This document shows, piece by piece, positions 40,788 to 42,126 of a stretch of 64,000 nucleotides of DNA; position 1 is the first letter of the stretch; the number at the start of each line of letters is the position of its first letter. Below the pieces are notes generated by a model. That model did no database searches. It was not told where the DNA came from and saw nothing but the letters and a program-made list of their open reading frames with translations. The position numbers and the translations under genes are program-made. The stretch is from the NCBI GenBank assembly GCA_021733925.1, contig JAIPJY010000009.1:62001-126000 (forward strand), in the 5' to 3' direction. The stretch comes from Prosthecobacter sp. Its GTDB lineage: Bacteria; Verrucomicrobiota; Verrucomicrobiia; Verrucomicrobiales; Verrucomicrobiaceae.

Positions 40788-40935
40788 AAAGGGGTCAGGT
40801 TGGGGTTTGAGGGGAGGATACATAACGACTCCGCCCCGTGTTTCAAACACGGATCATCCCTGAAACCACCAACGCCCATGATTTGACAAAATTAGCCAGC
40901 TGCGACACCTCGCCAGAGTCCACCTCCTCCGCCTC

Positions 40936-42126
40936 ATGAAAAAGCCGTCCGCCAATCGCAAAACCAGCGCCCCGGCCCAGGCGAAGCCAGCCAGCCTCAC
41001 CCCTCTCCTCACCGAAGTCCGGCAGCTCATCCAGAGCGCCCGCCGCGGCGTGTCCACCATCGTGGACACCTTCCAGGTGATGACCAACTTCGAAATCGGC
41101 CGCCGCATCGTCGAACACGAACAAAAAGGCGCGAAGCGAGCTGCCTACGGTGCGGAGTTGCTGAAGGAACTGTCGGCAAGATTGACCGAGGAGTTTGGCA
41201 AAGGCTTCTCAAAAGCCAATCTGGAATACATGCGGCGCTTCTATCTGGAATGGGAGAGTCGAGTTCTTCAAATTGCCCAGCAGCCTACTGGGCAATTGCC
41301 TTCTTTGGAGATTCCCCAGCAGCCTGCTGGGCAATTGACACCAGCCAAGATTAGCCAACAGCCTGTTGGCAAATTGGCTGTCAGTCAGATTTCCGAGCAG
41401 CCTGTTCGGAAATCTCCCTTCACCCTCAGCTGGACCCACTACGTCACCCTCCTCACCGTCAAAGACCCAGATGAACGCAGCTTCTACGAACTCGAAGCCA
41501 CCAACTCCGGCTGGTCCGTCCCCGAGCTCAAACGCCAGAAAGCCTCCTGTCTCTACGAACGCCTCGCCCTCAGCCGGGACAAGGAAGGCATCCGCAAGCT
41601 CGCCCGCGAGGGCCAGGTCATCGCCCGTCCTGAGGACTTGCTGAAAGAGCCGCTCGTCCTCGAATTCCTCGGCCTCGACGACAAGGCCAGCTACTCCGAG
41701 AACGACCTCGAACAGGCCATCATCGACCGCCTCGAACACTTCCTCCTCGAACTCGGCAAAGGCTTCCTCTTCGAGGCCCGCCAGAAACGCTTCACCTTCG
41801 ACGAAGACCACTATTTCGTCGATCTCGTCTTCTACAACCGCCTCCTCCGCTGCTACGTCATCATCGACCTGAAGCTCGACAAACTCACGCATCAAGACCT
41901 CGGCCAGATGCAGATGTACGTGAACTACTACGACCGCGAGGTAAAACTCCCCGACGAAAACCCCACCATCGGCCTCCTCCTCTGCAAGTCCGCCAAAAAG
42001 ACCATCGTCGAACTCACCCTTCCCAAAGGCACCAACATCCACGCGAAAGAGTACAACCTCTACCTGCCCTCCAAAGAGCTGCTGAAGCAGAAGCTCGACG
42101 AATGGAGCGCAGCTGCGAACAGATGA
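40936..42126 (+). CDS. DUF1016/YhcG-type PDDEXK nuclease with an expanded hairpin-repeat linker
   Basis: The 396-residue protein has the DUF1016 N-terminal domain (VDTFQVMTNFEIGRRIVEHE, EEFGKGFSKANLEYMRRFYL). The PDDEXK-like C-terminal domain has RFTFDEDHYFVDLVFYNRLL and CYVIIDLKLDKLTHQDLGQM; D296 and D311-L-K313 are candidate catalytic residues. Between the halves, residues 113-159 are four 13-residue repeats of the type I-x-Q-Q-P-x-G-Q-L. At the DNA level they form four co-varying hairpins (see the repeat entry). YhcG-type nucleases are found in accessory and defence-rich regions. No restriction or defence gene flanks it here. The stop lies 16 bp from the stop of murG, facing it. Confidence 0.88.
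   Translation: MKKPSANRKTSAPAQAKPASLTPLLTEVRQLIQSARRGVSTIVDTFQVMTNFEIGRRIVEHEQKGAKRAAYGAELLKELSARLTEEFGKGFSKANLEYMRRFYLEWESRVLQIAQQPTGQLPSLEIPQQPAGQLTPAKISQQPVGKLAVSQISEQPVRKSPFTLSWTHYVTLLTVKDPDERSFYELEATNSGWSVPELKRQKASCLYERLALSRDKEGIRKLAREGQVIARPEDLLKEPLVLEFLGLDDKASYSENDLEQAIIDRLEHFLLELGKGFLFEARQKRFTFDEDHYFVDLVFYNRLLRCYVIIDLKLDKLTHQDLGQMQMYVNYYDREVKLPDENPTIGLLLCKSAKKTIVELTLPKGTNIHAKEYNLYLPSKELLKQKLDEWSAAANR
41271..41413. repeat. Four in-frame hairpins at exact 39-bp spacing, with co-varying stems
   Basis: The unit starts are 41272, 41311, 41350 and 41389. Each has a 9-bp left arm, a 7-bp loop cagcct(a/g), and a 9-bp right arm. The arms are attgcccag/ctgggcaat, attccccag/ctgggcaat, attagccaa/ttggcaaat and atttccgag/ttcggaaat. 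The first pairs at 9 of 9 positions and the others at 8 of 9. The arm sequences differ between units, yet pairing is kept. The spacing is exactly 13 codons, so the repeats stay in frame in the DUF1016 gene (residues 113-159). Confidence 0.93.

Follow-up and report, generated by a model that had tools for sequence, protein, structure and literature searches.

What keeps four palindromes of differing sequence paired within a single open reading frame is the question raised by a nuclease gene in the window, as the whole analysed stretch of 64,000 nucleotides from a Prosthecobacter genome is called here. The encoded protein belongs to the DUF1016/YhcG family, with DUF1016_N at residues 27-209 (133 bits, cut-off 32.8) and YhcG_C at residues 234-387 (172.5 bits, cut-off 32.5), and the gene matches the PADLOC model PDC-S02, where PDC stands for phage-defence candidate. 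Residues D296, D311 and K313, invariant in an alignment of 40 sequences, are the predicted PD-(D/E)XK catalytic residues; NCBIfam gave no match for the gene, and a sequence search returned no solved structural relative of the protein. An AlphaFold2 model of modest quality (mean pLDDT 66.7, pTM 0.43) places residues 113-157, with pLDDT below 50, in a predicted disordered linker. The palindromic units, defined as 25-mers with 11-bp arms around a 3-nt centre and scored by the number of pairs out of 11, are given below with the gene and the linker.

40936..42126, + strand: DUF1016/YhcG-family PD-(D/E)XK nuclease gene, 396 aa (Pfam, PADLOC, residue alignment)
41272..41406, + strand: variable linker, predicted to be disordered, an insertion within DUF1016_N (AlphaFold2 model)
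41272..41296, + strand: unit 1, ATTGCCCAGCA gcc TACTGGGCAAT, peptide IAQQPTGQ(L), 10/11 pairs, ssDNA fold z -5.23
41311..41335, + strand: unit 2, ATTCCCCAGCA gcc TGCTGGGCAAT, peptide IPQQPAGQ(L), 10/11 pairs, ssDNA fold z -2.62
41350..41374, + strand: unit 3, ATTAGCCAACA gcc TGTTGGCAAAT, peptide ISQQPVGK(L), 10/11 pairs, ssDNA fold z -3.58
41389..41413, + strand: unit 4, ATTTCCGAGCA gcc TGTTCGGAAAT, peptide ISEQPVRK(S), 10/11 pairs, ssDNA fold z -5.82

The units are spaced exactly 39 bp and all four are in frame, encoding nine-residue peptides (IAQQPTGQL, IPQQPAGQL, ISQQPVGKL and ISEQPVRKS) at a spacing of 13 residues, with unit 4 closest to the LSWTH motif. The first-pass annotation had described them as in-frame repeats with 9-bp stems around the loop cagcct(a/g), and a recount agrees, giving 9, 8, 8 and 8 of 9 pairs; the pair counts of the 9-bp model stand, but 11-bp arms with a 3-nt centre describe the units better. 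Chance does not account for them, since their single-stranded DNA folds reach z-scores of -2.6 to -5.8 and the genome background is far lower. A scan of 695 kb, about 10% of this genome, gave 26 sites with at least 10 of 11 pairs; nine lie in DUF1016 genes and the remaining 17 are not of the ATT...AAT type, which answers the earlier concern that unrelated sequence might pair equally well. The other four DUF1016 copies of this genome carry palindromes as well, with best scores of 9 to 11 pairs and different arms. Orthologues of the window gene have 4 to 6 repeat peptides. Pairing is mostly kept among homologues, but decay of pairing also occurs, as the orthologue at the window-gene locus in L002 forms a good hairpin in only two of its four repeat peptides.

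The four hairpin units are thus confirmed, and the observation proves far more general than had been thought. A search with the window protein gave 587 loci, and the 80 most similar, from many phyla and from archaea, formed a first homologue set; 78 of these (L014 and L038 were dropped, only one gene half having been found) and the window gene gave 79 genes. In the linker before the LSWSH motif these contain 148 in-frame 25-mers with at least 9 of 11 pairs, against a synonymous null of 4.7 on average and 10 at most (200 within-gene shuffles), and at least one unit occurs in 73 of the 79 genes. Outside the linker only 2 sites were found in 24,738 in-frame windows, and the linker sites are distributed over the three frames as 148:2:1. 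A protein-level repeat that is palindromic by accident is rejected by the synonymous shuffles, and local tandem repeat decay by homologues with quite different stems that are still paired.

A larger set, built by profile, comprises 161 bacterial and archaeal DUF1016 ORFs, among them paralogues from single genomes and some near-identical genes, as a duplicate was dropped only if one ORF contained the other; one or more in-frame 25-bp palindromes with at least 9 of 11 pairs are present in 146 of them, and 15 fall below. The genes carry 1 to 7 copies, usually shortly before the LSWSH motif. Measured over 132 genes, the distance from the start of the closest unit to the conserved W downstream is 10-25 codons in 102, and in 35 it is exactly 10 codons. 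The larger set also has out-of-frame sites (44 of 308), which are separate in position from the in-frame ones. In L108, an other-frame palindrome, ATTGTCTCCGC ttt GCGGAGACTTT, lies at gene nt 278-302 in the N-terminal domain, near an in-frame one. Six of seven plasmid or phage DUF1016 copies examined have the palindrome (Citrobacter, Klebsiella, Salmonella, Cetobacterium, Rhodococcus, Nostoc), and gp17 of Wolbachia phage WO has no unit with at least 9 pairs. The first reading was too narrow in this respect: instead of a local repeat family, or scattered insertions in the manner of the Rickettsia palindromic elements (RPEs), the palindromes are a feature of nearly the whole DUF1016/YhcG family, kept in one frame.

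The palindromes are kept by pairing, not by sequence. With one unit taken per gene (n=146), pair occupancy is 0.85-0.98 against 0.31-0.85 with a shuffled 3' column, the former being biased upward by the choice of units with at least 9 of 11 pairs; unbiased measures of pairing are the unselected counts against the synonymous null and the scoring, in the 79 genes, of each pair where 8 of the other 10 pair. A comparison of 170 within-gene unit pairs shows pair 5 changed on both sides but still complementary in 81, identical in 75 and with an unpaired member in 14, and in general arm positions 4-6 vary within a gene and pairs 5 and 6 stay complementary. The proposed covariation of the stems accordingly extends to homologues with quite different arms, and the argument that decay alone cannot produce such pairing, so that selection or a copying mechanism is implied, is upheld. 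The loop cagcct(a/g) did not prove to be a conserved recognition element: loops vary, and what is kept is the pairing, the arm length and the ends, the unit consensus starting with ATT and ending with AAT.

The constraint appears to act on DNA, given the sharp end of the element and the equal rarity of G-U and A-C mismatches at wobble positions. Beyond the 11-bp arm, pairing drops sharply to 0.62, 0.33 and then about 0.25, and inside the would-be 3-nt loop complementarity falls to 0.63-0.66 where 0.43-0.44 is expected. At wobble positions G-U occurs in 29 of 665 cases and A-C in 48 of 1079, or 4.4% each; over all positions A-C mismatches (90) outnumber G-U (34), partly through codon constraint at pair 4, and this gives the RNA no support either. 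Seven of 93 genes with a locatable motif have a second palindrome over the conserved N-terminal helix YGxxIxxxLSxxL, with scores of 9-11 against 0-6 in all other genes. The arms of these N-terminal palindromes resemble the linker palindrome of their own gene (6.3 of 8) more than those of other genes (4.6 of 8; permutation p 0.0008), as would be expected if one factor reads both sites, or from conversion between them. The DUF1016 palindrome is thus in frame, of fixed length, placed in a set gene region and paired at the DNA level while its sequence changes, and this holds for most of the family.

Similar palindromes occur in further gene families, which were scored with the fixed 11+3+11 template only, so that the shared geometry is partly imposed and approximate, and in ORFs that are the longest frames over family matches rather than re-annotated genes. 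RhuM genes (L132-L161, PF13310; Bacteroidota) carry one palindrome with co-varying arms at the peptide TVRNFRTVQ, AACTGTTCGGA aat TCCGAACAGTT; 18 of 30 ORFs have at least 10 pairs, RhuM ORFs in other loci being counted too, and 17 of the 18 sites lie in the same frame at this peptide, against a synonymous null of 1.1 (maximum 5). ORF6N genes (L307-L330, PF10543), chosen as a control, turned out positive, with co-varying arms mostly at LRSQIATS, for example TTGAGGTCGCA aat TGCGACCTCAA. Here 19 of 23 ORFs have at least 10 pairs with one site counted twice, or 18 of 22 once the duplicate is removed (L321 and L329, which overlap on a single contig, share the site); the synonymous null is 0.25 (maximum 2) and three sites are in another frame. 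Both families mostly have one site per gene, and past the 11-bp arm ORF6N runs on for about three pairs (0.71, 0.57, 0.52), whereas RhuM stops (0.30). Bro-N (L356-L380) is positive in 4 of 25 ORFs at the same threshold (null 0.17). The true negatives are Fic and PDDEXK_2, with palindromes of at least 10 pairs in 0 of 25 and 0 of 24 ORFs, respectively.

As regards what reads or maintains the palindromes, the tentatively favoured explanation, held at somewhat below even chances, is that the protein encoded by each DUF1016/YhcG gene recognises a hairpin or cruciform site in the DNA of that gene itself, most likely in a self-limiting manner. The gene would carry one or more 25-27 bp palindromes able to form a hairpin or cruciform, the encoded nuclease would be their most plausible trans-acting reader, and the YhcG protein, by binding or nicking the structure in its own gene, might limit its own expression or activity. 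An operator inside the ORF would be portable, so that a widely transferred single-gene module could regulate itself in any host. The encoded protein is the natural candidate because the signal follows the gene across hosts without an obvious shared regulator, and the nuclease is what archaea, cyanobacteria, actinobacteria, fusobacteria, Bacteroidota and E. coli would most plausibly share. The first-pass annotation had offered a hairpin recognised by the nuclease as speculation; with no G-U excess over A-C, the case for its autoregulatory RNA variant is weaker, and its DNA variant becomes the leading explanation.

The catalytic domain of YhcG has been predicted to be nearest to YraN-like Holliday-junction resolvases (Kosinski et al., excerpts of PMC1189080). 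Such a likeness would fit, as Holliday-junction resolvases act on four-way junctions, which is what an extruded palindrome presents. The link rests on the published prediction, since the fold search, a weak one, found nothing at or below E 1e-3, and its top hits, none of them confident, were Cas4-like or cap-snatching nucleases rather than resolvases. The palindromes of RhuM, ORF6N and some Bro-N genes also count for self-recognition. Several points weigh against it: the sequence varies within a gene, so that recognition would have to be largely of structure; a palindrome of 11-12 bp extrudes poorly in vivo; and the E. coli palindromes that lie outside the ORF, or between gltD and nanQ where yhcG is absent, are not predicted by self-regulation. 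The exceptions in WO gp17, in the 15 of 161 ORFs below 9/11 and in the two poorly paired repeats of L002 point the same way.

A broader form of this reading, on which less confidence can be placed, is that at least three families (DUF1016/YhcG, RhuM, ORF6N and perhaps part of Bro-N) share an in-frame hairpin of about 11+3+11 and closely similar geometry that is read by their own products. They would form a general class of self-addressing genes: their coding sequence would also act as a signal in DNA structure, allowing self-regulation that travels with the gene or mobility directed by the gene itself. RhuM, ORF6N and Bro-N are DNA-binding-domain families, and DUF1016/YhcG, RhuM, ORF6N and perhaps part of Bro-N are single mobile modules.

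A serious though rather unlikely alternative treats the palindromes as structured sites of recombination or mobility. Insertion, loss or exchange of the gene, of its neighbours or of linker units would take place there, effected perhaps by the nuclease in a homing-like manner or by a partner recombinase. Part of the case for it comes from the E. coli locus. Matches to yhcG occur in 4417 of 5426 E. coli genomes, 3310 of them covering at least 80% of the gene, which in K-12 has three palindromes 39 bp apart with 10, 10 and 11 pairs. Among eleven alleles compared, two of them frameshifted and one truncated, the copy number is 1, 2 or 3 and every intragenic unit found has 9-11 pairs; together with the variable repeat number among window-gene orthologues this would fit exchange of units. 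Ten alleles retain the 3' end, and all of these have a further palindrome of the same class downstream of yhcG. In K-12 it starts 16 bp past the yhcG stop and another starts 16 bp after gltD, so that the gltF-yhcF-yhcG segment is bracketed by palindromes, and in strains Nissle and 4/0, where the locus lacks yhcG, a single palindrome remains between gltD and nanQ. In E. coli B (L233:4001-4406) the yhcG homology ends exactly where the third palindrome ends. About 90 bp past that point is a small ORF annotated as a transposase.

Mobility would also suit the up to 14 family matches per genome (fragments included), one hsdM-hsdS placement, and the enterobacterial plasmid DUF1016 genes L244 and L245, which overlap an annotated site-specific integrase by 4 bp (with a Pfam check for L244). 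The overlap suggests an operon in both. However, most DUF1016 loci lack a flanking palindrome: in 460 kb of flanks, 26 sites have at least 10 pairs, and only 8 are of this type, 3 of these in further DUF1016 genes or a fragment. Upstream copies as a general feature are likewise rejected, the only clear cases being isolated ones in L035 and L048. In L048, two DUF1016-type palindrome pairs (1595-1619 with 1649-1673, and 2768-2792 with 2822-2846, spaced 54 bp within each pair) lie on either side of a RhuM gene that is upstream of the DUF1016 gene, largely outside long ORFs. Nor does the window locus offer an empty-site palindrome. The murG gene is present in 21 genomes of the window's family, its own genome included; at the 11 other murG loci compared there is neither a DUF1016 nor a reductase neighbour, and the 400 bp after murG hold no site in 10 relatives and an unrelated 9/11 site in the other. 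Finally, mobility sites would need no in-frame upkeep in one gene region.

The palindromes might alternatively be maintained by mutation, with template switching (quasi-palindrome correction) repairing one arm from the other, no selection on the structure and perhaps seeding by the conserved codons for I, Q and L; this, too, is a serious though rather unlikely alternative. E. coli alleles do show double-sided differences, as in unit 2, where O102:H6 has ATTCTC...GAGAAT and CDE6306 has ATTCGC...GCGAAT. The downstream palindrome has the loop agt in K-12 and act in O157, which fits an inversion, and a single base change fits as well. The equal G-U and A-C rates are in keeping with a DNA process, and the residual complementarity of the loop also speaks for mutational maintenance. 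Such a mechanism should, however, hit near-palindromes in any gene, which is at odds with Fic and PDDEXK_2, and it leaves the set region, the frame, the fixed length of 25-27 bp and the family-wide presence across phyla unexplained.

A functional mRNA hairpin, serving as an autoregulatory binding or cleavage site or in translational pausing at a domain boundary, is disfavoured and appears quite unlikely. The RNA folds strongly (z -7.5), and the units lie, according to the model, in a predicted disordered linker between structured parts. A conserved RNA would tolerate G-U above A-C, whereas the two are equally rare in DUF1016 and number 3 and 3 in RhuM and 4 and 5 in ORF6N; moreover, some palindromes lie outside any long ORF. 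A known RNA family is rejected, as the sole Rfam match between positions 40800 and 42200, RF00658, scores 19.7 bits against a gathering score of 52. Very improbable, lastly, is an ordinary sequence-specific operator bound as duplex by a protein dimer, which would suit the greater likeness of arm positions 7-11 within genes (0.76-0.92) than between them (0.35-0.68) and the mostly single sites of ORF6N and RhuM, presumed DNA-binding families, but gives no reason for unread positions to stay complementary, as pairs 5 and 6 do.

Dispersal through the genome was assessed separately. Among 288 Verrucomicrobiota genomes searched, the pattern ATTNNCCAGACNNNGTCTGGNNAAT occurs at 7 sites in 6 genomes (reversed control pattern 0), 6 of them in DUF1016 ORFs and 1 in the remnant L127; the DUF1016 ORF of L128 is interrupted, and the sites of L130 and L131 belong to one gene. 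In genome G059 one arm type has 4 exact matches, all at one locus, and with up to 3 mismatches it matches 135 places against 54 for the reversed control, which counts against specificity. BLAST with one palindrome allele found a median of 2 and a maximum of 5 places per E. coli genome. A genome-wide palindrome family is thus not seen in the 288-genome pattern search, the 695 kb of the window's own genome or the E. coli BLAST, with the weaker G059 matches exceeding their control.

Comparison with described systems gives a similar picture. The RPEs, reported in Ogata 2000, are likewise in-frame palindromes inside protein genes. They are described, in excerpts of PMC4316617, as selfish insertions of about 100-150 nt in many genes, intergenic regions and RNAs. 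Unlike these, the DUF1016 element measures 25-27 bp, keeps to one gene family, one region and one frame and has arms that differ per copy, and all 7 pattern sites fall in DUF1016 genes or a remnant rather than in many unrelated genes and RNAs. REPs of the REP/RAYT system are also short structured palindromes, some of them intragenic, which carry a GTAG or CGTC tag and reach up to thousands of copies in unrelated genes (excerpts of PMC3733652). The DUF1016 element, in contrast, has no shared arm sequence, is confined to the gene families described above and has ATT...AAT rather than GTAG or CGTC at the stem foot; in place of many near-identical dispersed copies there are the 26 own-genome sites, of which 9 lie in DUF1016 genes with differing arms. 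PARCEL elements resemble the units as coding repeats with dyad symmetry, horizontal spread and variable copy number, and consist of 25 residues (75 bp) that DUF285 recognises, many of them in membrane proteins (excerpts of PMC2996958). Pfam found no DUF285 in the window protein, only DUF1016_N and YhcG_C.

Integron attC and IS200/IS605 sites are DNA sites of variable sequence recognised through their folded structure, as would be the case here; they lie outside genes or at gene ends and serve integron or HUH recombinases, unlike the DUF1016 palindrome, which is inside a gene. Intragenic operators are protein-binding palindromes within coding regions, as the DUF1016 palindrome may be, but the known ones are sequence-specific, whereas here complementarity is kept while the sequence changes, and family-wide in bacteria and archaea. 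No description of the intragenic palindrome was found in excerpts of the open-licence literature on DUF1016, YhcG, COG4804, PDC-S02, RhuM and ORF6N, absence there being no proof, and excerpts of PMC4316617, PMC1189080, PMC2672614, PMC3733652, PMC7967276, PMC3559427, PMC8649781 and PMC2996958 describe no such element.

The initial interpretation as a whole is partly supported. The picture that emerges is of a second code, one of DNA structure, that overlies the protein code of widespread gene families ranging from archaea to E. coli and is kept by compensating changes. The palindromes offer a way into the question of what the uncharacterised YhcG/DUF1016 nucleases (PDC-S02) may recognise, and with RhuM and ORF6N as parallels, self-contained mobile genes may follow a general principle. 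For yhcG itself, deletion has been reported to be synthetic lethal with dnaN, dnaB and parE hypomorphs (excerpts of PMC2672614), and in K-12 (L232) the ncRNA G0-10703 has been reported as antisense, overlapping the yhcG 5' UTR by 128 bp (excerpts of PMC7967276). In the window, a separate short perfect palindrome, ccgtgtttcaaacacgg, lies at 40836-40852 in the start region of the divergently oriented reductase gene.
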